32,812 nucleotides of DNA from Deltaproteobacteria bacterium (lineage in GTDB: Bacteria > Myxococcota_A > Polyangia > Polyangiales > Houyiibacteriaceae): NCBI GenBank assembly GCA_013151775.1, contig JAADHO010000235.1, forward strand, positions 1 through 32,812, written 5' to 3'. Position numbers and translations under genes: made by a program. Shown in pieces: positions 1 through 24,991 of the stretch (position 1 is its first letter; every line of letters starts with the position of its first letter). Below the pieces are notes generated by a model. The model had not been told where the DNA came from. It was given only the letters and a program-made list of their open reading frames with translations, and searched no databases.

Positions 1-1
1 G

Positions 2-1999
2 TATGTCGCGTCTCCGCCGGACGAGGTCGTGGCCTCGTGGCTTCAGCAGCTGCGCGCCGTGCGCGAGGTCGCTCCGACAGTGCGGGAGGTGCTGCTCACG
101 GACGAGCGTCCCCACGCGCAGCTGCCCGCGTTCTTCGAGGCGCTCGTCTCGGAACCATCGCTTCACGCTGTCGAGCTGTTGATCAAGAGTCGTGTGGATT
201 GGCTGATCGAGGGGGAGCAGGATCTGGCGGAGGCCGCCGAGCAGGCGCTGCGGACCGGAAGCGTCTTGCACCCCTACCTCGTGGGTTTCGAGAACTTCGA
301 CGCATGGCACCTGAAACTCTTCAACAAGGGTTACGACGCCGAGCAGAACGCGCACGCCATCGAGCTGCTTCGACGTCTGAAGACGCGCTACCCGGACAGC
401 TTCGAGTACCGGCGTCATCGCGCCCACGGCATCGTGCTCTTCACTCCCTGGACCGAACCCGAGGCGCTCTTGGAGAACGCCCGCTGGATGCGGAAGGTCG
501 GCTTCGCGGAGCTTCGCAGCGCCGCGGTGGAGACCCGGCTGCGTCTCTATCCGAGGCTCCCGCTCTACGCCAAGGCGCAGGCGGATGGCCTGCTCGCCGA
601 GAGCTTTGGGGACGCGCGCGAAGATCGCGCCTCGGAGCAGGGCTACGACGCGAGCACACCTTGGCGCTTCGCGGACTCGCGCACCGCGGCCATCGAGTCC
701 GCGTGTCGGGATCTGCGTCACCTCGGTCTGGACGACGCGGATCTGCTCGAGCTCTGCACTGAATTCGTGCTGCGCTGGCCCGGCCTCGCCCGACGACCGA
801 CCGCAGCGTCGGGGCCGATTCTTCAGGCGCTGCGAGCGTGGGGGAGACCGCCGCGAGCCCTCTTGTCGAGCCTCGGACCCAGGATCTCGGGTTGGGATCC
901 CGAGCTCGAGACCGTCGGTGAAGGCGCCCGCGAGTGTGCGCTCAAAGAGGACGTCCCGAGGGAGCACGCCGCTCGACTCGTGGAGGCCTACACGGCCATG
1001 GGTCTCTGCGCGCGCGTCGTCTCCGCCCATCGGCTGGAGCAGGAGACGGGTGACCACCTGCGTGGCGATCAGCGCGTGAAGGTGGCTGTCGCTCGCGCAC
1101 CCGAGCAGCTCGAGGCGCTGGTCTCGGTGCAGCGTGAACTCGAGGAGACGGGCGACGTCGCTCCACTCGAGCAGGCGGGGCGACTCCTGGGCTACCCGGC
1201 CTGTTGTGTGCGCGCGCTCTCGACGCGCGAGCATCCCGGCGACAACTTGGCCAACGAGCGTGAGCCCTTTCGGCGAGCGCCCGAGGCGCGTCTGGCGCCC
1301 GAGCTCAACCGCCTCGGTTGGGCCTCCCTCGTGCGCCATCACCTCTGCAGCCCGGACTGCGAGGCGTCTCTGGAGCGGGCGCAGGCCGTGCTCCTCGGGC
1401 TCGAGCGCCTCGACGCCGCGGGTGCGCGAGCGTTGCGTGAGCGTCTCGCCCGACCTGTGCTCTTTCTCGACTACCTTCGTCGCGCCGAGCTAGACGGCCG
1501 CTGGGTTGGCGAGAGCTTTCGTGTCGACGCGCTCGAGTGGCTCGAGCCCGACGCCGAGCTCGTCCCCGCGCGCCGCGTCCGCTCTCTGCGGCTCGATGCG
1601 CGTGGTGTGGTCTTCGAGCTCGACGATGGCGCGTCTCGACGCGTCGATGCCCGCGCCCCGTTGCTGGTGGAGCCGGGTCGCCCGTTGGCGCAGCAGGCAC
1701 GGGCTGCGTTGGCGCAGGAGGTGGGAGCCACCCTGACGCAGGAGCCCCGCGCGGTCCTTCGTCGAGGGCGACGCATCGGCGCCTTCGAGCTCACCCGACT
1801 CCGCACCCGAGGCGACGAGCGAGAGCTCCGCCTCCAACGCGACGCGGAGCGAGTCGAGCTGCGGATTCGGCCCCACGATCCCGCGCGACCCCAGACCATC
1901 CGCCGCGGGCGCTGGGCCTTGGACGTCCGCGATCCCCTCGCGCTCTCGGACGACGCCAAGCGCGCCATCACCTGGATCCTCCGGAGTCTCCCGCGCTGA
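2..1999 (+). CDS. Cobalamin-type radical SAM protein fused to a DUF483-like domain (5' partial)
   Basis: The frame is open to the left edge, so the true start and the Cx3Cx2C cluster motif probably lie outside the window; GTG at 29 is only the first in-frame start codon visible. Numbering from that codon, residues 1-200 read like the strands after the cluster loop of a B12-binding-type rSAM barrel (LLTDERP, then VGFENF near 86-91). Around residue 388 comes LGYPACC, and about 50 residues later HHLCSPDC, the paired cysteine motifs I associate with DUF483. The last ~130 residues are a beta-rich tail that may resemble accessory domains in two other proteins of this cluster. The 3' end overlaps the convergent double-rSAM gene by 32 bases. 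The rSAM fold is fairly clear, the DUF483 assignment is from motif memory, and the substrate is unknown. Confidence 0.72.
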   Translation, partial: YVASPPDEVVASWLQQLRAVREVAPTVREVLLTDERPHAQLPAFFEALVSEPSLHAVELLIKSRVDWLIEGEQDLAEAAEQALRTGSVLHPYLVGFENFDAWHLKLFNKGYDAEQNAHAIELLRRLKTRYPDSFEYRRHRAHGIVLFTPWTEPEALLENARWMRKVGFAELRSAAVETRLRLYPRLPLYAKAQADGLLAESFGDAREDRASEQGYDASTPWRFADSRTAAIESACRDLRHLGLDDADLLELCTEFVLRWPGLARRPTAASGPILQALRAWGRPPRALLSSLGPRISGWDPELETVGEGARECALKEDVPREHAARLVEAYTAMGLCARVVSAHRLEQETGDHLRGDQRVKVAVARAPEQLEALVSVQRELEETGDVAPLEQAGRLLGYPACCVRALSTREHPGDNLANEREPFRRAPEARLAPELNRLGWASLVRHHLCSPDCEASLERAQAVLLGLERLDAAGARALRERLARPVLFLDYLRRAELDGRWVGESFRVDALEWLEPDAELVPARRVRSLRLDARGVVFELDDGASRRVDARAPLLVEPGRPLAQQARAALAQEVGATLTQEPRAVLRRGRRIGAFELTRLRTRGDERELRLQRDAERVELRIRPHDPARPQTIRRGRWALDVRDPLALSDDAKRAITWILRSLPR

Positions 2000-3812
2000 T
2001 CGGCCGCAGCTCCTGATCGCCATAGAGCGCGGCGTATCCACGACGCAGCCCGTAGCAGCGCTCGAAGAGGGCGCAGCCGCTGCAGCGCTCGGTCTTGATG
2101 AACTCACCCTGATCGAACGCCTCGGGGATCGGCGTCAGCTCGTGGGCGCGCGAGAGGCTCGCGGGCACCAGACAGAGGGGCAGCCCGCACATGGCCTCGA
2201 GTCCACCCATCTGCACGCCCAGCTGAACGGCCAAGGTCGCGGCCTCTTCGAGCAGCGGCAGCACGTCTGTGTAGCGCGGGATCAGATCTTCATCGCGCGG
2301 CACGAGGTCAGTGGACGGCGCGACGAAGGAGATGGTGATGAACGCTTGCGGCCAGCGCGTGGCCACGAAGCGTACGTAGTCTGGAAGCTGCGCCATGTTG
2401 CGGCGGCAGATCACGAAGTTGAGCATCAACAGCAGGTCGAGTTTGGCGAGGTTGTCGATGCCGGCGACGCTGCGCGCGAAGGTGCCGGGCGCGCCCGTGA
2501 CGTCGTCGCTGACCTGCGGCGTGCAGCCGTGGAGCGAGACGAAGACCTCGTCGAGGCCCGCGTCGCAGAGCGCGCGCGCGCGCGTCATGTCGTCGAGCAA
2601 GACAGCGTTCGTCTGCAGCTGCACCGGCTGAGTCGAGTGCGCTTTCGCCAGACGCACGTAGTCGATGAGCCGCGGGTTCAGCGTCGGCTCTCCGCCGGAG
2701 AGCGTCAGCTTGCGTCCGGCGCGCCCCGCCTGCTCGATGGCGCTCACGATGCGCGCGTCGGCGGCGGTGGGTAGGTGCGTCGAGACGAAGCAGAAGCGGC
2801 AGCGTTGGTTGCAGCGAAAGTTGGTGCGCACGATGTCCTCGAAGGACTCGCCTCCCGCGCCAGGATCGAGCCTGTTGCGCGTCACCACCTCACGCTCGAT
2901 CTGCGCGTCGATGGAGCCGATCTGTGACAGCTGCCGGCGTGTGCGTTCTTCGAGAATCGGGTGCAGAGCGGGCTCTGGATCACGCGCGAGGTAGGCGTCG
3001 GCGAGCCCCGGGCAGCGGTCGCTCAGGACGCAGCCCTCACAGTCAGGGAGCTTGCGAAAACCTCTCCGCTGGCCTCCGCCGGCGGTAAGGCTGAAGATCC
3101 CAGAGGGCAGAGACCCAGCTCGGAAGATGCAAGGCGGCGTGCTGTCGTCGGGCGACAGGCGCACGGGCAGACCCTGATCGTGAGCCTCACGCGTCAGCCG
3201 AAGCAGCGCGGGCGCGGCCTCCCCGTAGTCGAGCAGCTCCTCCTCGAGGGGACCCGCCACGGGCACCAAGACCTGCAGCTCGCGCATGCCGTGGTCGTCG
3301 CCGAGCAGCTCGCGCAGCCCGCGCGGCACTCCGCCCACGAGCTCGCGGGTCGAGCGCGCCAAGGCCACGCAGATGACCAGCGGGATCCCGGCCTCGCGCA
3401 GCGCCAAGAGCCCGCGTCGAGTCGCCTCGAAGCCTCCGGGATCTCGGGTCACGGCGTCCAAGCCCGCGCCCCAGCCCGAGACGTTGACGTGTGCCAGATC
3501 GAGCCCGGCGTCCGCGAGTTCGTGTGCGCGCGCCTGGTCGATCAGCGTGGCGTTGGTCTCGAGCACCAGCGTGGCCTTCGTCCGGGCGCGCACCTCTCTC
3601 ACGAAGGTCGCGAGCTGTCCGTGGAGCGTGGGCTCGCCGCCGCTCAGCCTGAGCTCCTGCAGGTCGGCGCTGAGGCTCGCGCTCAACCGACCCAGGACCG
3701 CGGAGCTGGCCACGAAGTCGGAGTCGTCGCGAGGCCGCCGCCTGTCGCAGTAGCGACAGTTCTGATTGCAGGAGTGGTTGATGCTGACTCGAGCCGTACG
3801 CATGTCGCTCAT
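1968..3812 (-). CDS. Double radical SAM protein with two intact cluster motifs
   Basis: This 614-residue protein contains two complete rSAM units in tandem. Unit 1 has CNQNCRYC (Cys15, 19, 22), SGGEP ending at 61, a PPC segment, and an auxiliary CEGCVLSDRC (Cys258, 261, 267). Unit 2 has CNQRCRFC (Cys334, 338, 341), SGGEP ending at 376, and CSGCALFERCYG (Cys577, 580, 586) followed by an aromatic/acidic tail. Cx3Cx2C binds the SAM-cleaving 4Fe-4S cluster in this superfamily; the CxxCx5C motifs probably bind auxiliary Fe-S. ATG at 3812 overlaps the upstream stop as ATGA, which fixes the start; the frame stays open upstream only by chance. It is the last gene of the 8870-1968 operon. The fold is certain, the reaction unknown. 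Confidence 0.9.
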   Translation of the reverse strand: MSDMRTARVSINHSCNQNCRYCDRRRPRDDSDFVASSAVLGRLSASLSADLQELRLSGGEPTLHGQLATFVREVRARTKATLVLETNATLIDQARAHELADAGLDLAHVNVSGWGAGLDAVTRDPGGFEATRRGLLALREAGIPLVICVALARSTRELVGGVPRGLRELLGDDHGMRELQVLVPVAGPLEEELLDYGEAAPALLRLTREAHDQGLPVRLSPDDSTPPCIFRAGSLPSGIFSLTAGGGQRRGFRKLPDCEGCVLSDRCPGLADAYLARDPEPALHPILEERTRRQLSQIGSIDAQIEREVVTRNRLDPGAGGESFEDIVRTNFRCNQRCRFCFVSTHLPTAADARIVSAIEQAGRAGRKLTLSGGEPTLNPRLIDYVRLAKAHSTQPVQLQTNAVLLDDMTRARALCDAGLDEVFVSLHGCTPQVSDDVTGAPGTFARSVAGIDNLAKLDLLLMLNFVICRRNMAQLPDYVRFVATRWPQAFITISFVAPSTDLVPRDEDLIPRYTDVLPLLEEAATLAVQLGVQMGGLEAMCGLPLCLVPASLSRAHELTPIPEAFDQGEFIKTERCSGCALFERCYGLRRGYAALYGDQELRPISAGDSGGSR

Positions 3813-5770
3813 GGCACGATGGGCAGGTGACGGCCGGAGGGATCCGCGCTCGAGGACTCGGCCTCGATGGCCGCGCGAACGCCGGCGATCTCCCGAAGCC
3901 AGCGAGGGCGGGCTCGACGCGCCCAGCCTTGGAGGCGCTCGAGATCCGCTACGACCTCGGCGAGACGCACTGGGTCGCGATAGAAATCCGACTGGCTGGA
4001 GAGCTCGACGCTCAGCGGCAGCAGCCGAATATCGAGGCCGCGTCCACGGGCGATCTCGGCGAACTCCAGCAGTGAACCCGAGGACTCGGGCTGCACCACG
4101 AAGCTGAGGGTGATGCCGAATCGGCGATGGTGGCAGGCGCGAAACTCCATCAAGGCGTCGACGTTCTCGAGCAGCTGCTCGAAGGAGATCGTCCCCCGCT
4201 GCACCTGCTCGTACACCGCCGCCGTGCCGGCGTTCACGCTGATCGTGATGTTCCCGAACGTGCAGCGCCGCAGATGCCTGAGCGCAGCGGCGTTCAGCAG
4301 GCTGCCGTTGGTCACGAGGTCGACGGAGGCGTCGGGATAGCGCGCTGCATTGAAGCGTCGCAAGAACGTCATGGCGCCATGGCTCGCGAGGGGTTCGCCG
4401 CCGAGCAGGGTGAGCGTCTCGAGGGTCGGTAGATAGCCCTCGAGCTGTTCGAAGATCTCCGCGGGCAGCTCTCGAGTCGGCACGCGACCGTGATCGCACA
4501 TGATGCAGTCGAAGTTGCAGTAGGTGCTCGCCGCGACGGCGATGCGCAGCGGCCGCGCGCGTGTCACGGCGCGCCCCGCGGCGATGTCTTCGGCCATCAC
4601 GCGCTGATTCCGCACAAAGATCTCGGAGCCCTCACGGATGCGCAGGTGCGCCTCGGAGTACGCGCCGTCGTGCAGCCTCGGGCACACCGGGAGGCAGAGA
4701 TCGTCCAGAGGATCGGCCAACATCGCGCGACGCGCTCGCTGGTAGCCGGGACCGTTCCACACCGCGTCGAGGGAGCTCGCGCTGACGTCGCCGCGCGCGC
4801 CCACGGTCCACGCCTTGCAGCACTGTCTGGCGCGTCCGTCGGGATCGACGATCTCGAGCGTCGTCCAGGGGCTGACGCAGATCACTCCCTCTCCGCCGCG
4901 GGCGCGCGTCAGGCCGCTCGGGACCGGAGCGCTCCCTCGTCTGCGCGCGATCGCGAGCCCCGGGGCGTCGATGGCGACGGGCTGTGGAGCCACGCTGGGA
5001 CTCGCGTCGGCGTCGTCGAAGCGACAGCTCGATGCGAGACCACAGCTCGCGCACGCCTCGAAGACCTCGTTCTGGCCGCTCCGTCGACGCAGCACGCGGC
5101 GCCAGGCGCCAGGACGCCGGGCCCAGATCTGCGGCAGGAGGCACGCTGGCAGGTGGTCCATTCCTGGGCGCCTGCTGTCGTCGAACTCGATGTTGGGCGC
5201 CTCGGCGAGCGCGCTCGCGAGCTGCTCGATGGCCACCGGCTGCGGCGAGCCGCCGACGTTCTGTCGCAGCATCTGCAAGCGCACGATTCGAGGGGCGACG
5301 CGCCGCGCCAAGGGAGAGACCATGCGGAAGCTCTTCGGTCGCACCCGGGCGAAGATCTCCACGAGCAGACCCGCGGACTCCGCATCGGCGATGACTCGCT
5401 CGGGATCGCGACTGCCGATCGCCCGGCTCATGCGAGCGCCGAGGGACTCCACGAAGATCACGACCCCAGTGACTCCCGCCGCGGCGAGCCCCTCGAGAGT
5501 CTGCGGGTCGAGGCTGGCTGCGGGCGCCTCGAGCCACACCTCCTGCGGTACGTCACGCGCTTGGTTCTGGGCGAGGAAGGCCGAGAGCTGCGGCCAGCGC
5601 GTGGCGTCGCCGCCGCCGAGCACGAGGGTCGGCCCAAGGGACTCTTGCAGGACGGACTCGAGGCTGGGCTCCACCTGCGCCGGAGAGCAGCTCACGCAGG
5701 CGTAGCAGCTCCTCGCGCATCCAGAGCGGACGAGCACGCGACGCGCGTCATCGGTATGCGACAGGCTCAC
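3809..5770 (-). CDS. Double radical SAM protein with an internal SPASM-like segment
   Basis: This 653-residue protein has three parts. Residues 1-250 are an rSAM unit with CARSCYACVSC (Cys18, 22, 25), a degenerate GGGD at 52-55 where GGEP is normal, and CASCGLASSC (Cys240, 243, 249). Residues ~300-365 look SPASM-like: Cys317-Cys318, then SLDAVWNG, then CLPVCP (Cys359, 363). Residues ~405-653 form a second rSAM unit with CNFDCIMC (Cys418, 422, 425) and LLGGEP. In ordinary rSAM/SPASM enzymes the SPASM part follows the barrel; here it precedes the barrel, as in the gene at 12257-13456. GTG at 5770 overlaps the preceding stop as GTGA, supporting that start. Its own stop overlaps the next start as ATGA. 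The substrate is unknown. Confidence 0.87.
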   Translation of the reverse strand: MSLSHTDDARRVLVRSGCARSCYACVSCSPAQVEPSLESVLQESLGPTLVLGGGDATRWPQLSAFLAQNQARDVPQEVWLEAPAASLDPQTLEGLAAAGVTGVVIFVESLGARMSRAIGSRDPERVIADAESAGLLVEIFARVRPKSFRMVSPLARRVAPRIVRLQMLRQNVGGSPQPVAIEQLASALAEAPNIEFDDSRRPGMDHLPACLLPQIWARRPGAWRRVLRRRSGQNEVFEACASCGLASSCRFDDADASPSVAPQPVAIDAPGLAIARRRGSAPVPSGLTRARGGEGVICVSPWTTLEIVDPDGRARQCCKAWTVGARGDVSASSLDAVWNGPGYQRARRAMLADPLDDLCLPVCPRLHDGAYSEAHLRIREGSEIFVRNQRVMAEDIAAGRAVTRARPLRIAVAASTYCNFDCIMCDHGRVPTRELPAEIFEQLEGYLPTLETLTLLGGEPLASHGAMTFLRRFNAARYPDASVDLVTNGSLLNAAALRHLRRCTFGNITISVNAGTAAVYEQVQRGTISFEQLLENVDALMEFRACHHRRFGITLSFVVQPESSGSLLEFAEIARGRGLDIRLLPLSVELSSQSDFYRDPVRLAEVVADLERLQGWARRARPRWLREIAGVRAAIEAESSSADPSGRHLPIVP

Positions 5771-7671
5771 GCTCGGCGCACCCGCGCGACAGTCGCGGCG
5801 TCGATCGCTTCGAATTCGTCCGCGCCGTAGAGCTCCAGATAGTGCCGCGGCACACCCATGCACAGCTCGGACGCCGCGCAGTCTTCGCACGCCTCGACCT
5901 TCGTCATCCACTCCCTCTCCCACGCGTGCAGGCGGGCGCTCTCGGCTTGCCGAAGGATCGGGCCCAAGTACGTGGGGTCGGCGCCGAAGATGCACAGCGA
6001 CGGGATCCCCGTGGGGTCCTGAAGATCCGCGACCCGCAGCTGCCTCGCCTGCGCCCGCTCGATCGCTTCCCGCAGCGGGCTCGCGTACTCGCTGTAGCGA
6101 GCGATGTGTTCCCGCGCGTCCGCGTGAGACGCGAACTCGGTTCGTGGAGAATGAAATTGCAGCATGATGCGCTCGAGCCACGGCGCGTAGCGCTCGGCGA
6201 CGAGCTCCACGAAGGCCGTGAGCAGGTGCAGGTTGTCTCGAAAGATCAGGTGGTTGAGCGTGCAGCGGACGCCGGCTCGCAGCAGCGCCTCCACGCCCGC
6301 GAGGGTCTTCTCGTGCGTGCCCGGCGCGCCCGTCAGCCGGTCGCTGATCGCGCTCTCGGCGCAGTGCAGCGAGACCTGTGCGCTGTCGAGACCTGCCTCG
6401 CGCAGGCGGGCGGCGCGCCCGGGACGCGCGAGCTGCACAGCGTTCGTTTGGATCTCCACGTCGTCGAAGCCGAGCTGCTTGGCCAAGGCGATGTAGGACG
6501 CGAGCTCGGCGCAGAGCGTGGGCTCGCCACCCGTGAGGATCAGCCTGCGCGAGCCCCGCGCGCGCGCCGCCCGGATCGCCGTGCGCACGCGTTCTGGATC
6601 GAGCTCCGTGCGCATCTTGGAGAGCTCACAGAAGGTGCAAGGCTGATTGCAGCGGTAGATGATCCCCACGCGGCTGATGCCTCGCTCGGACTCCCCCGCG
6701 AACTCGTAGTCCACGTGAAAGAAGGGCTCCACGTCCGCGTCCACCACCCGCAGGGCGTCGCGCCCGCGCAGCTCCGGGAGGTACCCCGTGACTCGCTCGA
6801 TCGGGTGTGGAGCGCCGTCTCCGAGTAGCTGCTCGAGGCGCTCGGCGCGTACGGAGCAGCGGCCGGAGAGCGCGCAGGAGGCGCACGCCACATGAGCGCG
6901 AGTAGGGTCGCCCGCTCGCTCTCGGAGCTGTCGTCGCATGCGCTTCAGCAGGCTTGGACCAGGCTCGACTCCGTCAAATACGCAGGGCGGCAGCGGCAGA
7001 TCCGGCGAGAGTTCGATCTCACCACCGGCGCTGTCAGCTAGCGCGCAGACCCGCTCGAGTTCCTCGAGGACGGATCCCGGGAGGCCTCGGGGAGATCCCG
7101 CCACCGCGAGCTCGAAGAGCCGGATCGCCGGGATCGAGGCGTGCAGCTCCGTGAGCCTGTCTGAAGCCGACGGCGCTCCCTCTGCTACCGGCAGCGTCAC
7201 CACCACCACGAGGCCGGCCGCTGCTGCGGCGCGCAATCCGCGCATCACCCCCTCGGGTGAATCTCTGCCGCTCGAGAACCGTCCATGCGTAGACTCGTCC
7301 AGAGACCACCACGGTACGCGTACCATGGTCACCCCGGCGGCGCGCAGTCGCTCCGCGCGACCAGGCTCGGCGAGCAACGAGCCCGCCGTGACCAGCGTGA
7401 ATTCGCGCACCCCAAGGCGGCGTGCCTCGAGGGCGAGCGTCGCGATATCCTCGCGTGTCAGCGGCTCACCGCCCGCGAGCACGAGCCGCTCGACGCCCTG
7501 CTCTGCGTAGGCGCGCAGCGCGTTCATCAACTCTTCGGTGGATGCTTGGTGCTGGCCTTCCACGCCCAGCGGCGCGTTCGAGTGCGTCAGCCGCTCCGAG
7601 CGTCCGTCCCGGCGTGCCGGAGGCGCAGCCGAATCTGAATCGTGCGCGGGATTCGCGACGTCGGAGCCCAT
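5767..7671 (-). CDS. Double radical SAM protein whose first domain lacks the cluster cysteines
   Basis: This 634-residue protein has two rSAM units. Unit 1 keeps AGGEP (67-70) and the tail motif CASCALSGRC (Cys263, 266, 272), but where Cx3Cx2C should be the sequence runs SERLTHSNAPLGVEG with no cysteine, so this half probably cannot cleave SAM. Unit 2 is intact: CNQPCTFC (Cys341, 345, 348), TGGEP, and CEDCAASELCMG (Cys595, 598, 604), followed by a Tyr-rich FG-type tail. ATG at 7671 was chosen, 50 bases after the preceding stop; it lacks a good ribosome-binding site. An in-frame CTG overlapping that stop is an alternative. The stop overlaps the downstream GTG start. Unit 1 may act in binding or dimerisation; this is inference. 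Confidence 0.87.
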   Translation of the reverse strand: MGSDVANPAHDSDSAAPPARRDGRSERLTHSNAPLGVEGQHQASTEELMNALRAYAEQGVERLVLAGGEPLTREDIATLALEARRLGVREFTLVTAGSLLAEPGRAERLRAAGVTMVRVPWWSLDESTHGRFSSGRDSPEGVMRGLRAAAAAGLVVVVTLPVAEGAPSASDRLTELHASIPAIRLFELAVAGSPRGLPGSVLEELERVCALADSAGGEIELSPDLPLPPCVFDGVEPGPSLLKRMRRQLRERAGDPTRAHVACASCALSGRCSVRAERLEQLLGDGAPHPIERVTGYLPELRGRDALRVVDADVEPFFHVDYEFAGESERGISRVGIIYRCNQPCTFCELSKMRTELDPERVRTAIRAARARGSRRLILTGGEPTLCAELASYIALAKQLGFDDVEIQTNAVQLARPGRAARLREAGLDSAQVSLHCAESAISDRLTGAPGTHEKTLAGVEALLRAGVRCTLNHLIFRDNLHLLTAFVELVAERYAPWLERIMLQFHSPRTEFASHADAREHIARYSEYASPLREAIERAQARQLRVADLQDPTGIPSLCIFGADPTYLGPILRQAESARLHAWEREWMTKVEACEDCAASELCMGVPRHYLELYGADEFEAIDAATVARVRRA

Positions 7672-7721
7672 GCGGTCGAGTCTAGTGCCCCTCGCCAGAA
7701 AAGCGATGCGCTCTTCGCGTG

Positions 7722-8870
7722 TCAGCCCATGGCTCGCAGGTGTGAAGACCACGCGTCCACCAGCCCGCTCGGCAGGCCACAGCATCGGTCGCGTTCCACG
7801 CACGAGGAGCAGGCGTCGCCGAAGCGTCCCGCCTGAACATGGGCGTAGATCGTGAAGGGTCCGTGGGCTCGGAGCAGGTCGGTCGGGAGCGCGTCCGGGC
7901 CGAGACAGGGGGGAACTCCCAGCACCCGCAGCCTGCCGTTCAGCTCTCGCAGGATCTCGGGAGCCGGAAAGAAGGGGATGCCCGCGCCGTACTTGAAGCG
8001 CGGCAGGCCGGCGGCCAGAGGCAGGCCGCGCGCGTCCGCCCAGGCCGCGAGATCGAGCAGCTCGGAGGCGTTCTGTTCGAGCGCGATCGTGTGCAGGAAG
8101 ACCTCGAGCCCTGCCTGCTGCGCGCCATCGATCGCGGCGTGTAGACGCGCGAACGCTCCGGGCGCTCGCACGATGTCTTCGTGGGTCGCCGCGGTGGCGC
8201 CGTAGATCGGCAGCGACACGGACTTCAGACCCGCGTCGACCAGCCGTCGCCCCACGTCCGCAGTCGCCAGCGCGTCTCCCGTGGCGATCATGGTGACGGT
8301 CTCGGCGCCCGCGTCGGCGAACAGACGCACGGCGTCCTCGAGCCGTGGCCAGAGCGTCGGCTCGGGTCCTCCAAGGCACACGTAGGCGCCCTCGAGGGGC
8401 GTTCGCCCATCACGCACGGCTGCGAAGCAGAGCGCCTCCGGCACGCCGTCGGACTGACTCTCCACGTGACCGCAGAAGATGCAGTCTCCGAGGCATGACG
8501 TCTCGAGGAACGCGATCCAGGTCCGATCCGGATCGAGGATAGCCGACGTGACGTCCCCGAGGTCCACCTCACGAACGGGATAACAGCCGGGGCCGCGATC
8601 GAAGGGCAAGCTCCAGGGAAGCTCACCGGCGAGGCGCCGCCACTCGTCGCGCTTGGCCTCCACGAGTTGCGTCAAGGACGCGCGCAGCCCGGCTGCGTTC
8701 TCGAGATGGTCTGCGAGCTCGAGGTGAATGCCGCCACGCTCCCGCGGGAGTATCCGCGCCAGCGCTCTCCCGTCCCTCATGGCGCGGCACTCCCCACGCC
8801 ACCACGCGATCGAGACGCCTTCGAGGCCAGCGTCGCTCAGGGCGGCGCGAATCTGCTCAGCCAAGGACAT
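7722..8870 (-). CDS. Radical SAM protein with an N-terminal accessory domain
   Basis: This 382-residue protein has a ~110-residue N-terminal region without cysteine motifs, then an rSAM domain with SCLGDCIFC (Cys126, 130, 133) and LGGPEP (167-171), a one-residue-expanded form of GGEP. Near the end come PPC and CSSCVERDRC (Cys354, 357, 363), the auxiliary-cluster motif repeated across this locus. ATG at 8870 has GGAG six bases upstream; an in-frame TTG at 8882 lacks that support. It is the first gene of the minus-strand operon running to 1968 and is divergent from the cobalamin-type rSAM at 8975, with 104 bases between them. The N-terminal region may resemble those of the proteins at 13456-14883 and 2-1999. 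Function unknown. Confidence 0.87.
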   Translation of the reverse strand: MSLAEQIRAALSDAGLEGVSIAWWRGECRAMRDGRALARILPRERGGIHLELADHLENAAGLRASLTQLVEAKRDEWRRLAGELPWSLPFDRGPGCYPVREVDLGDVTSAILDPDRTWIAFLETSCLGDCIFCGHVESQSDGVPEALCFAAVRDGRTPLEGAYVCLGGPEPTLWPRLEDAVRLFADAGAETVTMIATGDALATADVGRRLVDAGLKSVSLPIYGATAATHEDIVRAPGAFARLHAAIDGAQQAGLEVFLHTIALEQNASELLDLAAWADARGLPLAAGLPRFKYGAGIPFFPAPEILRELNGRLRVLGVPPCLGPDALPTDLLRAHGPFTIYAHVQAGRFGDACSSCVERDRCCGLPSGLVDAWSSHLRAMG

Positions 8871-8974
8871 GTGGGACTCCAAGACTAGGGTGAAGGCCTG
8901 TGTCGGTCAGGCAGGCCGGCTTCTCGAGCAGGATAGCGTCTCGGCGCAGGTATGCTCTTCAAAAGCGCCCGGGT

Positions 8975-10366
8975 ATGATGACGCCGATGGAGAACACACC
9001 CTTCCGCTTGGCCTTGGTGAACCTGTGCGAGGACGCTTATGGCTACGGCGCTGGCGCGGCGGAGTATCTCGAGGCGGCCGTGCGCTCCGCGCCGGAGCTT
9101 CGCGACCGGGTGGACGTGCGGATCTTCTTTCTCCAGGGCTCGACCGCCGAGCAGGCCGCCGAGACCGTGCTCGCGTGGAGCCCCGATCTCGTGGGCTTCA
9201 GCGCCTACAGTTGGAACCTCGCCATCACCGGCGAGACATCGCGCATCATGCGCCGTCTCGCTCCCGAGCGGCCCATCGTGTGGGGCGGCTGCTCGTTTCT
9301 GCATCTGCGACAACGACACGACTGGTTCGAGTGGTGGGACGCGGTGGACGCGGTGGTCGTGGGATATGGAGAGCTCACGCTGATCGAGCTGCTCGGTCGC
9401 CTGCTCGAGCGACCGGGGCGCAGGACCGCGTCGCAGCTCGCGCCGGGGCTCGTCACGCAGGTAGACGGCGTCGTGCGTTCGGGTCCTCCGGGGCGTCAAC
9501 CCATGTGCTCCGATCAGATCCCCTCTCCCTATCTTCTCGGGAGCGCCCGACACGTCCCGCGACCCTATGTGGAGATGGCGCGCGGCTGTGTCTTCAACTG
9601 CACGTTCTGCAGTGACGCCAAGAGCTCACGCCAGATCCCCTTTCTTCATCATCCGGCCGATCGCATCGCCGCCGAGATCGCTCACATCGTAGCGTGGCCA
9701 GAGGCCGAGTGGATCGACGCCGGTGCGAGCACGGCCAACGTCAGCGATCAGGCGTTCCTCGATGTCTGCGAGGCCATTCGACGAGGCGATCCCAACCAGC
9801 GACTACAATATTCCTTTCAGCTATATCCATCCTTGGTTCGACCTGGACACCGCGACGCACTTCAAGGCATTCGAATCGGAAAACATCTGATCGGACTACA
9901 GTCCTTGAGTCCTGCGACATTTGCGCCCATGCGCCGTGGATCACGACTCGAACATTTGCGGCGCGCCGTCGATCTGCTGGCCGGCACAGGGCCGATCCAC
10001 GTCTCCGTGATTCTCGGCCTTCCCGGCGAGACCTTGGCATCTTTCGCCCAGATGATGGACCTGCTCGTCGAGATCGAGCCCTTGCGAATCAGCGTCCATC
10101 GGCTGCTGGTTCTGCCGGGCACACAGATGCACACGCAGAGCGAAGCGCTCGGGTTGAAGTTCGATCCCAAGCTCTTCTATCGCGCTACCCAATCTTCGAG
10201 CATGTCGAATGACGATCTGCGCGCGGCGCAGGAGTTGGTGATGGAACATGGACGCCGCTCCGATCGCGCAGGTGGAGACCGGTTTAGAATTGATTGGACC
10301 AACTTCGACATCCAGCGAAAAGCGTTTGATCCTCCTATTCCAGAGGACGCCAACTCGGTGGAATGA
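8975..10366 (+). CDS. B12-binding-domain radical SAM protein
   Basis: This 463-residue protein shows the class B plan. Residues ~1-150 form a Rossmann-like cobalamin-binding-type domain (SPDLVGFSAYSWN, then PIVWGG), without an obvious DxHxxG histidine. An rSAM barrel follows, with CVFNCTFC (Cys205, 209, 212), then LIGLQSLSP and VILGLPGET, typical of this class. Members usually methylate or rearrange unreactive carbons, often in natural-product pathways. ATG codons at 8975, 8978 and 8987 are all possible starts; none has a strong ribosome-binding site. The 3' end overlaps the convergent SDR/rSAM gene by 32 bases. Stretches around 9790-9960 and 10180-10360 look AT-richer than the rest. Substrate unknown. 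Confidence 0.87.
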   Translation: MMTPMENTPFRLALVNLCEDAYGYGAGAAEYLEAAVRSAPELRDRVDVRIFFLQGSTAEQAAETVLAWSPDLVGFSAYSWNLAITGETSRIMRRLAPERPIVWGGCSFLHLRQRHDWFEWWDAVDAVVVGYGELTLIELLGRLLERPGRRTASQLAPGLVTQVDGVVRSGPPGRQPMCSDQIPSPYLLGSARHVPRPYVEMARGCVFNCTFCSDAKSSRQIPFLHHPADRIAAEIAHIVAWPEAEWIDAGASTANVSDQAFLDVCEAIRRGDPNQRLQYSFQLYPSLVRPGHRDALQGIRIGKHLIGLQSLSPATFAPMRRGSRLEHLRRAVDLLAGTGPIHVSVILGLPGETLASFAQMMDLLVEIEPLRISVHRLLVLPGTQMHTQSEALGLKFDPKLFYRATQSSSMSNDDLRAAQELVMEHGRRSDRAGGDRFRIDWTNFDIQRKAFDPPIPEDANSVE

Positions 10367-12260
10367 CTGCCGGGTCGAGCGACTCGGGGCCGATGGCGTC
10401 GAAGGCCTGCACGCCGAAGCGCTCGATGTCGTCGTGGTACACACCGCTGCACACCCTTCGGTGGGCGCACGCCTCGCAGGGGACGTCGTGTGACCAATAC
10501 GCCGCGTGGGCGTTCTCTTCGGGTTCGCCGCTGACGATGTCGACCGAATAGTCTTCGAGGTAGTAGTCCACGAGGTGCCTGACGAGCTCCGGGGCCAGGC
10601 AGGCTTGTAGGTTCCGCAGGCCCAAGACGCAGCCCGTCTTCTCGGCCGCGGCCAGCGCCTCGCGCGCGATCGCCGCGCGCTCCTCGGGCGCGAGCAGGAG
10701 CATGTCGGCGTGCGATAGGGCGTCGCCTATGGGCTTCACGAACGCAAGGATCGAAGGCGGCGTGGGGCGCCCGAGGGCGCTTGCGTGTTCGGCGATGGCG
10801 TCCAAGAGCTGAGGAATCGCGGGCGCGTTCAAGCGCGTGACGGCCGTGTAGACATAGAGCCGCGCTCGCGGATGAGCGAGCACATGGTCCAGGGCCTCCC
10901 ACTGCTTGGGCGCTTGGCCCAGGCTGCGGCTGATGCGGTCGTAGGTGCTCTCGTCGGCGCTGTCGATGGAGACATGAAAGGTCCGCACGCCACGCTCGAC
11001 GAGCCACTCGACGAGGCCCGGCTCGGCCAGGCGCAGGCCGTTGGTCATCAGCACATGGTCGCGTAGATCGGCCGCGCTCAGCGCGTCGAGTAGCCCCTCG
11101 AGCTGTGGGTAGATGGTGGGCTCGCCGCCGATCAGGATGGCTCGCTCACAGCCCGCCGCGCGTCCCGCCGCGATGGCGTCCTCGAGGCGCTCGAGGGGAG
11201 TGAAGCCCTGCGTGTCGCCATGGGGTGGCACGGCGCAGTACACGCACGCCGAATTGCAGGGTCGTCCGGTGTCCACATAGAACGCCGGGGAGAGCCAGCG
11301 CGCGAGCTCCTCGATCTCGGGGTGCGGCTCGGCGAGCACCGGCACGCGTCGCCGGCCGTGGACGTCCACGACGCGTCTCCCGCTGAACCGCTTGCTCGGC
11401 TTGCGCACCACAGGTCGAGGTCGCTTGCCCGTGGGGTGAGCGGCGAGCCAGGCGCCGAGCTCCCGGTACACCTCGATCGGGTCAGGCCAAGACAGCTCCA
11501 GCAGGCGACACGAACGCGTCACGTCGAGCCGCTCGTCGCCCCCGCCGTGGGGCCCCCGCCAATTCGCATCCGGGTGTCGGCCCGTCGGGACCTTCAGGCC
11601 CGCGCCAGCCACTAGCGCGGCGACCGCCTGCTCTACGGCGATCGTCTCCGGCGGGCCCACATTGATGGGCCCTGGCGGCACCCGCTCCGCGTCGTCAGCC
11701 AACTCGCGGATCAGCTGCGCTACCCCAGCCACGGGCGCGATCGTCTGTCGCTGTCGACCCGACCCCGCGTGCAGGGCTCGTCCCGTGGACGCCGCCGACT
11801 CGAGATACGCCTGTTCCCGGCGAGCGTGGTCCACCGACGCCACGAGGCGCGGCAAGATCAACGTGTGCACAGGGCCGTCGAAGGCCTGCGCGTAGCGTGT
11901 CTCCGCGGCTCGCTTGCCGCGGCCATAGTCGTCCTCGTCGAAGCGCGCCGCGATGGAGGACGCGAAGACGAGATGGCGTCGAGCTTTGGGGAGACCAGCC
12001 AGGGCCTCGAGCAACACGTCGGCGTCCGCCTGGCCAAAACACAGCAGGTCCACGACCACGTCGGCGCCCTCGAGCAGAGGCGCGAGGTCGGCCGCGCGCC
12101 GTCGATCACCGAGCACGAGAGAGATCGACTCCACGGCCTCGTCGGAGTGCGCCGCGCGTCGTGACAGCCCGCGAACCTCCCAACCCGCGAACGCCCGGGC
12201 GACGGCGGGCCCGAGGCGCCCGGTGACGCCGAGGATGGCCACGACCCTCCGCCGACTCAT
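10335..12260 (-). CDS. SDR-type NAD(P)-binding domain fused to a radical SAM domain
   Basis: This is a 641-residue fusion. Residues 1-~280 are an extended short-chain dehydrogenase/epimerase-type domain, with GVTGRLG (11-17) for dinucleotide binding, SS at 101-102 and Tyr112-x3-Lys116 as the likely catalytic pair, and later INVGPPETI. Residues ~325-610 are rSAM: CNSACVYC (Cys335, 339, 342), IGGEP (378-381), MTNGLRL, FHVSID. Near the C terminus is CEACAHRRVCSG (Cys595, 598, 604) followed by an FG-type tail. Both halves keep their key residues, suggesting one polypeptide performs or channels a redox/epimerase step and a radical step. ATG at 12260 overlaps the upstream stop as ATGA. It is the last gene of the 14,883-10,335 operon. 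Substrate unknown. Confidence 0.9.
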   Translation of the reverse strand: MSRRRVVAILGVTGRLGPAVARAFAGWEVRGLSRRAAHSDEAVESISLVLGDRRRAADLAPLLEGADVVVDLLCFGQADADVLLEALAGLPKARRHLVFASSIAARFDEDDYGRGKRAAETRYAQAFDGPVHTLILPRLVASVDHARREQAYLESAASTGRALHAGSGRQRQTIAPVAGVAQLIRELADDAERVPPGPINVGPPETIAVEQAVAALVAGAGLKVPTGRHPDANWRGPHGGGDERLDVTRSCRLLELSWPDPIEVYRELGAWLAAHPTGKRPRPVVRKPSKRFSGRRVVDVHGRRRVPVLAEPHPEIEELARWLSPAFYVDTGRPCNSACVYCAVPPHGDTQGFTPLERLEDAIAAGRAAGCERAILIGGEPTIYPQLEGLLDALSAADLRDHVLMTNGLRLAEPGLVEWLVERGVRTFHVSIDSADESTYDRISRSLGQAPKQWEALDHVLAHPRARLYVYTAVTRLNAPAIPQLLDAIAEHASALGRPTPPSILAFVKPIGDALSHADMLLLAPEERAAIAREALAAAEKTGCVLGLRNLQACLAPELVRHLVDYYLEDYSVDIVSGEPEENAHAAYWSHDVPCEACAHRRVCSGVYHDDIERFGVQAFDAIGPESLDPAVIPPSWRPLE

Positions 12261-13456
12261 GGCTCGACCTCGTCCTGCGGGTCAGCGCGCCCATCGGGGA
12301 GCGGCTCGAAGAGCCTCTGGGCCAGCCGCTCGCGCAGCACGTCGGCTTCTCCCAAGACGCCCTGCGCCTGCCGGGTTTCTCCGCGCTCATTCAGCCGCTC
12401 GGCTGCGCGGTCGAGTTCGTGGAGCACCTCGCGCATGGTCTGCTCGTCGGTCATCACGCTCTGTCGGTTGCGATCGAACATGGGCAGCATGAAGCGCACG
12501 CGCACGTCGTCGCGCTCCGCGAGCTCGACGAACGCGGCGATCTCGTGTCGGTTCTGCTTCAGCAGCACCATGCTGTAGATGATGTCGCCACGCAGTGAGC
12601 CTCGACGTCGCGCCTCGAGCAGGGCGTCGAGGTTCCCGCGCACGCGTTCGAAGGCTAAGCCTCGGTTGACGGCCGCGTATGTCTCCGGGCTGGCTGCGTT
12701 CAACGAGATGATGATCGTAGAAAACGGGACGCGCTCCAGGATCGGATGGCCCGGTGATAGATACGATCCGTTGGTGACCAACGAGATTCTGAGATCTGGA
12801 TATATGTCGCGATCGAGTCGCAGCAGGAAATCGCGAAATATCGGAGAGGCGAGGGGCTCTCCGCCAGCCACCTCGAGCGCGCGCACGCTGGGAAGAAGTG
12901 GCGCGAGGGCGTCGTAGAACTCGGCTGAGAGTTCGTCTTCGAGCGTGCCGACCTCACCCCACTCGCACATCAGGCAGTCATAGTTGCAGAAGGTGGTGGG
13001 CGGCACCATCAGCTCCAAGGGCTGACCGCGCACCTGCTCCCGCCCCTCGAGTAGATCCTCCAGGACCATCAGCTGGTTTTCGACGAAGGGCGCGCTCCCG
13101 CCCCGGAGCTGCATCTCCGCGAGCCGCTCGCGCCCGCTTCGCAGCGTCGGACAGCTCTCCCGGCAGGTCTCCGGATGTCCTGCACGCGAGAGTGCGCGAC
13201 GAAAAGAGCGCTGCACGCTTCCGTTCCACGCGTCGGCGAAGCTTCCGCCGACACGCACAGGCTCGCGTTGGAAATCGGCGCAGCACGGTCCCAAGAAGCG
13301 ACGCGTGCTGAGCTCGAGGCGAGTCCACGGCAGGACGCAGTCGCGCCGTGGAAGCTCAGCGTGATCGATCAAGTCCCCCACGCGCAGGTGCCCTCGCGGA
13401 TGATCCACGAGCAGAGCGCGAGCACGCCTTCGCCAGTCCTCGGGATGCACCTTCAT
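12257..13456 (-). CDS. Radical SAM protein with a SPASM-like domain at the N terminus
   Basis: This 399-residue protein resembles the second half of the protein at 3809-5770. Residues ~35-105 look SPASM-like: Cys40, Cys58-Cys59, FADAWNG (73-79), Cys98 and Cys102 in CRESCP. After an FVENQLM linker the rSAM barrel starts, with CNYDCLMCEWG (Cys157, 161, 164), AGGEP (198-201) and LVTNGSYL. There is no cysteine cluster after the barrel, so the auxiliary site is permuted to the front. The start ATG at 13456 shares its A-T with the preceding stop (TGATG), and its stop overlaps the next ATG. The stretch around 12700-12850 is locally AT-rich. Mature-peptide modification is one guess by analogy with SPASM enzymes; the substrate is unknown. 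Confidence 0.88.
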   Translation of the reverse strand: MKVHPEDWRRRARALLVDHPRGHLRVGDLIDHAELPRRDCVLPWTRLELSTRRFLGPCCADFQREPVRVGGSFADAWNGSVQRSFRRALSRAGHPETCRESCPTLRSGRERLAEMQLRGGSAPFVENQLMVLEDLLEGREQVRGQPLELMVPPTTFCNYDCLMCEWGEVGTLEDELSAEFYDALAPLLPSVRALEVAGGEPLASPIFRDFLLRLDRDIYPDLRISLVTNGSYLSPGHPILERVPFSTIIISLNAASPETYAAVNRGLAFERVRGNLDALLEARRRGSLRGDIIYSMVLLKQNRHEIAAFVELAERDDVRVRFMLPMFDRNRQSVMTDEQTMREVLHELDRAAERLNERGETRQAQGVLGEADVLRERLAQRLFEPLPDGRADPQDEVEP

Positions 13457-14883
13457 CAGCCGGCCGGTGACTTGGGCGGCCCTGCGACCTCGTCGGCCGC
13501 GAAGGCTACGAGCTCGCGAGTGCCAAAGTGTTCGGCGTATCCGCTCCATACGCCCGAACACCAAGGACGCATGGAACAGTCGTCACACTGCGGTCCGTAG
13601 GCGCGGTCCTGATGGCTCCACATGTCTGGAGTCTCGCAGAACCAAAGCGACTCGAGATGTTGGACATCCTCAGGGATGACGCATGGAGGGACCTGGCATT
13701 GATGGCATAGAGCCACGCGCACATCGAGCTGTCGCGCTCGGGCGAGCGCCGGTGGCAGCGACACGCTGAGCTCTGAGAGGCGTGGGTACGTGTCCAAGAA
13801 GAGGCTCATGCGTCCTTCGAAGGAAGGCAGTGAGAACTGCAAGAAGATATCGTCTGCATTTCCGAAATCGGCACACATCTCGATGAATGACGTGAGCTCG
13901 CTGAGGTTATGTCGACTCAAGACCAGCGTGATCTTGGAGCGAAAACCCATGTCGATCGCCTTGCGAATTGCAGCGATCTTCTTGTCGAAGAATCCATGGG
14001 ATACTGTCGTGAGCTCGTCGTTGGATTCTGCGCTTGTGCTGTGAAGTGAGAAGCCGATGCCGAGCCGATCCTTATAGGGCAGCAGGCTCTCCAACACCCC
14101 ATCCTCAGCGAGTCGGATGCCGTTTGTTTGTAGTATGATCTGCTTGAATCCCTTGCCATGAAGGACGCCGATATACTCGACGAAATCCGGATGCAGCGTC
14201 GGCTCACCGCCCGTGAGGATGACCTGTTGCAGTGTGGAAACATCCAGGTCTTCAATTGCTTTTCGCAGATCATGATGCCTGAGCAAGTTGTCTACTTCAT
14301 CGCTCTGGTAGAAGAAGCAGAACTTGCAGCGTTCCTGACATGCGTCGGTGATGCGCAGGTAGACTTTGCCATCGGGCCGGATCTCCAGCATCTCGGAGTC
14401 GGGTAGATGTCGCGTCGAGACCGGCTGACGTCGCCAGCTGCTCCAAGTCGAGGCGGGGTCTTCGCCCAGAGCCGCGCGCAGCAGAGAGGCGAGCGCCTCT
14501 CCGATGGGCTTCACGACCTCGTCGAAGGACAGCTCCGTGCTTCCGTAGCTGAGACGCAGAGGGCTCGCCTCGAAGGGCCCATCGGGTCCGGGGCTGCCCG
14601 GCGCGCCCACGTCGAAGAGCAGGTGCGCGTCGCCCTTGGCTAGCGTGACGCGGAGCCCCTCGGTGATCGCGAGAGCCGAGACGCTCCAGCCGCGGACGAT
14701 GGGCTCGCCTACGCGCAGCGGACCCAGCGTCGAGAGACCTCCCTTGCCCGCGCCAGCGAGCGGCACGAGCTCGCCCTGCGCGCCAGCGTCCATGGCCTGG
14801 ATGATGTCGTTCTCTTCGAAGCGATCCGCGTAGGCACGAATCTCCTCCCAGCGAATCCGCGGCTGCACGCTGCCCTTGGCCAT
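13456..14883 (-). CDS. Radical SAM protein with a ~150-residue N-terminal accessory domain
   Basis: This 475-residue protein is the first gene of the second minus-strand operon. Residues 1-150 contain no cluster motif; residues ~60-140 look like a few beta strands followed by a helix, and may relate to the N-terminal part of the protein at 7722-8870. The rSAM domain has ITDACQERCKFCFFYQ (Cys182, 186, 189), LTGGEP (225-228), LQTNGIRL and FSLHST. A CHQCQVPPC segment and the terminal CDDCSMRPWCSG (Cys433, 436, 442), followed by an HFGTREL tail, probably ligate auxiliary Fe-S. Start ATG at 14,883. Much of 13,600-14,340 looks AT-richer than its neighbours, which could reflect separate acquisition. 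Substrate unknown. Confidence 0.9.
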   Translation of the reverse strand: MAKGSVQPRIRWEEIRAYADRFEENDIIQAMDAGAQGELVPLAGAGKGGLSTLGPLRVGEPIVRGWSVSALAITEGLRVTLAKGDAHLLFDVGAPGSPGPDGPFEASPLRLSYGSTELSFDEVVKPIGEALASLLRAALGEDPASTWSSWRRQPVSTRHLPDSEMLEIRPDGKVYLRITDACQERCKFCFFYQSDEVDNLLRHHDLRKAIEDLDVSTLQQVILTGGEPTLHPDFVEYIGVLHGKGFKQIILQTNGIRLAEDGVLESLLPYKDRLGIGFSLHSTSAESNDELTTVSHGFFDKKIAAIRKAIDMGFRSKITLVLSRHNLSELTSFIEMCADFGNADDIFLQFSLPSFEGRMSLFLDTYPRLSELSVSLPPALARARQLDVRVALCHQCQVPPCVIPEDVQHLESLWFCETPDMWSHQDRAYGPQCDDCSMRPWCSGVWSGYAEHFGTRELVAFAADEVAGPPKSPAG

Positions 14884-24070: not shown

Positions 24071-24101
24071 GCGGGGACGCTCTGCGTCATTGCGTCATTC
24101 G
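24071..24101. repeat. REP-like repeat, copy at the transposase 3' end
   Basis: This 31-base sequence is the exact reverse complement of the first 31 bases of each tandem copy at 25,107 and 25,143. It contains GGGG, then the hairpin GACGC-TCT-GCGTC, then two GCGTCATT units. The transposase stop codon (complement of 24,095-24,097) is read from inside it. Confidence 0.85.
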
Positions 24102-24991
24102 GCAGCGGTGGTGAATCGCTGGCGAAATTCTACGAGCAACGACGCGAGGCCTGGATTGTCCGCGTTACGCGAAAGCAGCTTTGTCACGCTTCCGGTGTTC
24201 ATGCGAAGCTTTTCGGCCACGGTCGAGCACGTCTGGTCTAGGTCGCGCGTCGCCACGAATGCGACGAGCAGGCGCGTTGTCATGCCACGCCGCTTCGACG
24301 ACAGGGAAACGGTGCTCGCAAGCCCCGTGACTTCGCGCGCCACCTTCACCACCCGGCGCCATTCCCCGTCACCCAGAGCGCGGCAGAGCGACGACACGCG
24401 GACATGTTCGGCAATCGCACCTGCGGGCGAAGCCTCGAGATCGACTTCCATCACGAAATCATCGAAGCGCCGTCTCCCCGCTTCCGTATCGTCGAAACCC
24501 AGAATGTGTAGTGCATGCTCCACGTCGAGCCAGCGGGGGGCAGGGTCGAGCCGGAGATATGCACGATGACTCGTCCAAGTCGACTGGCTGGGCCGATCGA
24601 CCAAGCCAGCGCTGACCGGATTGCGATGATGGTACGCCACCAATCGAGCGAGGCCAGACGCATGGATGGGGGTGACAGCAGGCCGGTTTGCAAGGACATG
24701 CCCCAGGGTTCGTCCGTCCCTGCGGTGGTGATATCGCTGAGCGAACCGAGTGTGTGCCGATCGAAAGAAGCGATCCGGTGCGTTGATGCCTGCCAAGTGT
24801 CCGTAGTGCATATGCGTCGACATCACCGCATAGGAGAGCCATTGCCAGTCCCAGCGGTCGTTTGCACGTCCGATGGCATCGAGCAGCATGCGCCGGTCGA
24901 GGTCGTCGACCAGGTAGAAACGGCGATCGATGAAGCGACAGATGGTGTGGGCGCCGGCGCCCGGGACCCATGTACGTGCTTTGCGGGGCAT
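24095..24991 (-). CDS. REP-associated tyrosine transposase (RAYT, Y1/HUH type)
   Basis: This 298-residue protein has the Y1 transposase core in residues ~10-150: ICRFIDRRFYLVDD at the start, the HUH motif as HMH (60-62) in YAVMSTHMHY, and the catalytic tyrosine in LVAYHHRNPVSAGLV (Tyr120). Residues ~190-298 form an added helical region with a helix-turn-helix look (TCSTVAEKLRMNTGSVTKLL). RAYTs nick and move single-stranded REP sequences and are usually single-copy, domesticated genes. The stop lies within the flanking repeat, and the upstream repeats lie more than 100 bases before the ATG at 24,991. The reading frame appears intact. Confidence 0.92.
   Translation of the reverse strand: MPRKARTWVPGAGAHTICRFIDRRFYLVDDLDRRMLLDAIGRANDRWDWQWLSYAVMSTHMHYGHLAGINAPDRFFRSAHTRFAQRYHHRRDGRTLGHVLANRPAVTPIHASGLARLVAYHHRNPVSAGLVDRPSQSTWTSHRAYLRLDPAPRWLDVEHALHILGFDDTEAGRRRFDDFVMEVDLEASPAGAIAEHVRVSSLCRALGDGEWRRVVKVAREVTGLASTVSLSSKRRGMTTRLLVAFVATRDLDQTCSTVAEKLRMNTGSVTKLLSRNADNPGLASLLVEFRQRFTTAAE

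Follow-up and report, generated by a model that had tools for sequence, protein, structure and literature searches.

Nine adjacent genes, A to I, fill bases 2-14,883 of the window (the whole 32,812-nucleotide stretch analysed here, which is the entire contig C55, one of 460 in a 6.05 Mb draft genome), and all of them encode proteins of the radical SAM (rSAM) type. Four of the nine, A, B, C and D, are a real unit, rare and patchy in its distribution. Radical SAM enzymes are catalysts that rewire molecules by free radicals, and we know of few other catalysts within whose reach this chemistry lies. Our best explanation, to which we assign a probability of about one half, is a specialised-metabolism module made almost wholly of rSAMs, in which the A–B–C–D core and the lineage-specific genes E to I would perform serial radical steps on a substrate that the cell makes elsewhere and the cluster does not encode.

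Table 1. The nine rSAM-type genes of the window
Gene	Position	Strand	Features
A	2..1999	+	5′ end cut by contig edge; C-terminal part of class-B-like rSAM barrel, then DUF483-like GYPxCC domain
B	1968..3812	-	Twin rSAM, 614 aa; CNQNCRYC (B1), CNQRCRFC (B2); two auxiliary cysteine sites
C	3809..5770	-	Two barrels, CARSCYAC (C1) and CNFDCIMC (C2), SPASM-type segment between; start codon approximate
D	5767..7740	-	Twin-barrel; first barrel without motif, second CNQPCTFC (D2); start uncertain
E	7722..8870	-	Single rSAM, CLGDCIFC; one auxiliary site
F	8975..10366	+	B12-binding domain and rSAM, CVFNCTFC; class B; alternative start 8900
G	10335..12260	-	NmrA-like NAD(P)-binding domain (N-terminal) fused to rSAM, CNSACVYC
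H	12257..13549	-	Twitch-like N-terminal segment and rSAM, CNYDCLMC; start uncertain
I	13456..14883	-	N-terminal domain of unknown type, about 170 aa, and rSAM, CQERCKFC; one auxiliary site

The original prediction, that every gene up to base 14,883 is an rSAM gene, agrees with the Pfam results for B to I, each of which matches PF04055 above the gathering score; gene A has no PF04055 match and carries part of a class-B-like barrel. Twelve barrels were counted where about twelve folds had been expected: a single one in A and in each of E to I, and a pair in each of B, C and D. As also foreseen, the CX3CX2C motif is intact in ten of the twelve, is lost from the first barrel of D and lies off the contig in A. 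The first barrel of D still has GGEPL, and its motif is intact in the orthologues at L121 and L122. Most barrels end in CxxCx5C, mostly with PxC before it, which corresponds to a single auxiliary iron–sulfur site. Gene F matches PF02310 (40.2 bits, cut-off 32.1) and PF04055 (41.4 bits, cut-off 29.5), a domain content that predicts a B12-dependent class B rSAM. This clustering is not a product of chance, because 10 of the genome's 59 PF04055 matches lie inside 14.9 kb of 6.05 Mb, where about 0.15 would be expected (Poisson P of about 1e-15).

The claim that the set contains no other enzyme gene must be qualified: G, F and A carry fused NmrA-like, B12-binding and DUF483-like parts, respectively. 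The proteins had further been described as mutually different; however, D is a paralogue of B (35% identity between B2 and D2), and H is paralogous to C over the C-terminal half of the latter (36%). Inside E–D–C–B and inside I–H–G, neighbours share between 4 and about 94 bp. F is divergent from E and convergent with G, and A is convergent with B. With A and F in the opposite orientation, the cluster is not one transcript and only E–D–C–B and I–H–G resemble operons, so co-translation could apply to these two apparent operons and not to A or F. Elsewhere in the window, at 24095-24991, there is an open reading frame of low coding score and without a Pfam match, whose HMHYGHL recalls REP-associated Y1 transposases.

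The missing N terminus of A was located at the end of contig C445, where bases 11,423-11,846 encode 141 aa that are matched by a full-length homologue from another genome. Because gene A is split across C445 and C55, we infer that the two contigs are neighbours, with roughly 60-90 residues of A, including the predicted cysteine motif, falling into the gap. The left flank had been proposed as a place to look for a precursor, a transporter or further rSAMs. After the N terminus of A, it holds (by eye) an opposite-strand glycosyltransferase–hydrolase-like gene, membrane proteins, another glycosyltransferase, a drug/metabolite-transporter-like protein and a peptidase-like protein; these look ordinary, and the cluster therefore ends with A.

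In 19 non-redundant A-type proteins, the cysteines follow the pattern GCPxxxD...GCxFC, which corresponds to C-x22-31-C-x2-C and not to CX3CX2C; GCP is replaced by GCA in one of the 19. These cysteines may bind the predicted catalytic cluster, and if so, the A family would add an unusual cluster-binding motif to the rSAM superfamily. A further signature common to the A-type proteins, GFExFDxxLxxFNKG-like, can be aligned with class-B rSAMs, and an hhalign comparison of the A-type and F-type alignments gave a probability of 94.7% over 95 columns. Structure prediction for an A homologue gave an unusable model (pLDDT 67.5, pTM 0.45), which returned only spurious PDB matches. An hhalign match between A-type proteins and B proved to be an out-of-register chance match and was discarded, and ArsL was set aside as a guide to A, being a weak match (E 0.004) with a canonical CX3CX2C motif (PMC8552651). 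The C-terminal domain of A scores 15.6 bits against DUF483 (PF04467), and relatives tested singly score up to 24.1 bits, both below the gathering score of 25. Its GYPxCC and PCxxxC cysteines are invariant across nine aligned examples, and it is therefore named DUF483-like. At L095:7279-9633, adjoining an A-type rSAM, a tryptophan-halogenase-like flavoprotein is fused to a DUF483-like domain, with both matches just under the Pfam cut-offs.

The four core genes are found together in seven further myxobacterial genomes, among them Minicystis rosea and two of Sandaracinus type (L071/L118 in G030, L078 in G012, L121, L122, L123, L124 in M. rosea DSM 24000, and L177, in which A is split). Partial sets are present at L120, L134 and L131. 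The orthologues are mostly 44-54% identical, and the D–C–B order with a convergent A, as in the window, recurs at L123 and L124, the latter with other genes inserted. Among 379 sampled genomes of the phylum, C was found in seven and A in four, all four of which also carry C; within that sample, neither gene was found in other members of the window's own family. The expectation that the genes would co-occur elsewhere is thus borne out for A to D, whereas the nine do not recur as a set in the genomes searched.

For E, H and I, the genomes searched yielded no orthologue, and a search of the genome contigs with gene I returned no relative. Orthologues of F and G (51% and 48% identity) lie close together in one other genome only (L076/L130). 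The rSAM half of G has stand-alone orthologues of about 50% identity in 11 genomes of another family, and a separate NmrA-like gene is the divergent neighbour of the G-type rSAM in five of ten loci read, which marks G as the fusion of an apparent functional pair. This divergent pair, a split form of G, is seen at L217, L219, L220, L222 and L223, all from one myxobacterial family. The extra rSAMs at the A–D loci vary between genomes; E and I were compared with those of other islands (X, Y, Z and W) and dismissed as counterparts, the similarity being weak.

In 84,980 species genomes, the B family was found at 60 loci; nearly all carry the label Myxococcota or Deltaproteobacteria, and one is from a Candidatus Binatia MAG. 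Across 40 homologues, neither the two catalytic triads nor the two auxiliary sites vary, and B is often the sole rSAM within 10 kb. In a tree of the family, whose backbone is poorly resolved, core-linked members spread over several subclades, and their treatment as one clade is not supported. In Polyangium/Sorangium-type genomes (L079, L088, L089 and L090), B is paired with a protein of about 1000 aa in which two rSAM barrels are fused to a GFO_IDH_MocA oxidoreductase domain.

This variability could also reflect a loose hot spot, in which rSAM genes were acquired independently and have no common substrate. The lack of orthologues for E, H and I, the turnover of the extra rSAMs from genome to genome, the many genomes in which B and the G pair stand alone and the scatter of core-linked B genes over the tree are consistent with such a locus, and because B and the rSAM half of G also occur alone, the parts need not share one pathway. 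However, A to D are strictly associated and syntenic over distant genera, and start and stop codons overlap within E–D–C–B and I–H–G. Given the strict A–D linkage, independent accumulation could account for E to I and not for A to D, and we consider a hot spot unlikely as an explanation of the whole.

The serial-tailoring explanation draws on the surroundings of the core in relatives. Islands were counted in three complete genomes, for which the PF04055 figures are lower bounds; in each, the core is embedded in one densely packed rSAM island that accounts for at least 15 of 53 matches within 46 kb (G012), at least 21 of 57 within 69 kb (G030) and at least 19 of 70 within 63 kb (M. rosea). Both DUF483-like places in each of these genomes fall inside the island, and further rSAM families are common to the three. 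The islands also contain WelO5-type halogenases, 2OG oxygenases, a carbamoyltransferase, a UDP-GlcNAc 2-epimerase, a PIG-L deacetylase and glycosyl-, methyl- and sulfotransferases, and a tryptophan-halogenase-type gene lies near the core at L121. These non-rSAM natural-product genes do not adjoin the cluster in the window. The rSAM that marks the sugar/oxygenase module of M. rosea is absent from the window's genome; the core is therefore separable from this module, which we did not assign to its pathway. Secreted FG-GAP proteins that adjoin some islands were likewise rejected as substrates, as they do not recur with A to D.

Two other rSAM arrangements were seen in the course of this survey. 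At L121:20066-21562, an rSAM is fused to a peroxiredoxin (PrxQ/BCP-like) domain, under the curated cut-off. At L100:5278-10093 (G000:C309), three adjacent rSAM genes with two Cx3Cx2C motifs each are followed by reductase-like and ketosynthase-like genes (by eye); the three are probably the same as three tetraether-synthase-like (Tes) matches.

A modified peptide had been suggested as the product, and the search for a peptide substrate encoded in cis found none. No small open reading frame is common to the A–D loci of different lineages, and the gap between E and F holds one of 30 aa that is not conserved. Pfam returned no RRE (PqqD-like), peptidase or exporter match in A to I, a search that divergent RREs may escape. 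No precursor, RRE, peptidase or dedicated exporter was recognised adjoining the cluster, and neither the window nor the A–D loci encode a His-Xaa-Ser repeat protein (HxsA).

Maturation of a peptide or protein in trans is nevertheless the main rival, because the auxiliary sites are HxsC-like and a true HxsC4 gene adjoins D in M. rosea. The enzymes would then be RiPP-like maturases, with a precursor or secreted protein from another locus of the genome as their substrate. Several barrels have HxsC, HxsC4 and other SPASM-type maturases as their nearest curated families, an HxsC4 gene also lies near the core in a Byssovorax MAG, and HxsB and HxsD-like genes are present within the same islands. Moreover, rSAMs with auxiliary clusters are often peptide maturases, which counts against our preferred explanation. 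By contrast, the core loci have no conserved small reading frame and no His-Xaa-Ser repeat protein, Pfam gave no PqqD-like RRE in A to I, and sugar-modifying rSAMs such as BlsE equal SkfB in sequence closeness. The structure model of B is confident (pLDDT 91.7), and a fold search matched known structures only at the level of the shared single barrel; the model therefore decides neither for tailoring nor for maturation. We regard in-trans maturation as possible, though less probable than tailoring. The genome to which the window belongs also has a true HxsB (537.8 bits, cut-off 370), which lies beside an HxsC-like rSAM at L101:5260-7717 (G000:C201).

Together, a conserved rSAM core, variable additions and location in natural-product islands, without a precursor, RRE, peptidase or exporter, make stepwise radical tailoring the best reading, and we favour a small molecule or glycoconjugate rather than a peptide encoded at the locus. 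Each intact barrel is predicted to cleave SAM to a 5′-deoxyadenosyl radical, and the twin proteins B and C would each have two predicted active sites. By analogy with twitch and SPASM enzymes, the single C-terminal auxiliary cluster may hold or oxidise the substrate. F would use B12 to add a methyl group or form a C–C bond, and G may link radical chemistry to an NAD(P)-dependent redox reaction. One further radical step would come from A, which has an atypical cysteine spacing and a metal-binding-like GYPxCC domain. The initial observation of an all-rSAM cluster is confirmed in part, and its first interpretation is supported in part: a multi-protein assembly or a sequential pathway on one substrate is possible. 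More tentatively, A–B–C–D might be the core of an undescribed biosynthetic class with chemistry carried out almost wholly by an rSAM relay, in which A would bind its cluster through the new C-x22-31-C-x2-C motif and carry a GYPxCC metal domain. If true, a conserved cassette that encodes four multi-domain rSAM proteins and no other enzyme, situated in culturable myxobacteria within islands of 15-21 rSAM domains, would represent an untapped pathway.

A viperin-type defence locus that makes modified nucleotides was also considered. In its favour, B, D and I give 66-77 bits with viperin models and the distribution is patchy, but the best score against the NCBIfam model of prokaryotic viperin (NF038283) is 65.5 bits against a cut-off of 180. 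The matches are confined to the shared barrel and are outscored by MoaA and PqqE models, and the adjacent genes include no kinase or other defence gene. This assignment, highly improbable on these scores, was rejected.

The search for a known pathway or curated family that accounts for the set found none, and all nine proteins remain far below the NCBIfam equivalog cut-offs. In the literature searched, outside which most subscription journals fall, no description of all-rSAM cassettes or rSAM islands was found. The M. rosea genome in which we located the A–D core has been reported, by counts only, to have an overrepresentation of rSAMs, with 70 members (PMC8436480). Within that literature, the A–D cassette and the A motif appear to be new, and the enzymes themselves belong to a known superfamily. 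The nearest solved structures to the B barrels, in sequence and fold, are BlsE, SkfB, MoaA and GDGT-MAS; with each of these, one barrel alone aligns to B, and none is a fused twin. The best NCBIfam match of F is the family of KedN5-type B12-dependent rSAM C-methyltransferases (NF033712), with which it shares B12-binding and rSAM domains, but it scores 96.8 bits against a cut-off of 700. C and H resemble N_Twi_rSAM proteins (NF033640) in having a twitch-like N-terminal segment before the barrel, but reach 86.4 and 64.3 bits, respectively, against a cut-off of 170. Finally, for B, E, G and I, the Hxs systems (HxsB, HxsC and HxsC4; TIGR03978, TIGR03977 and NF038332) supply some of the top curated matches, namely HxsC or HxsC4. 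However, the window proteins are far under the cut-offs (the highest scores are 126.6 bits for a cut-off of 500 and 106.5 bits for one of 267.9), and the window differs from these systems in lacking HxsA and HxsD and in having a twin-barrel architecture.
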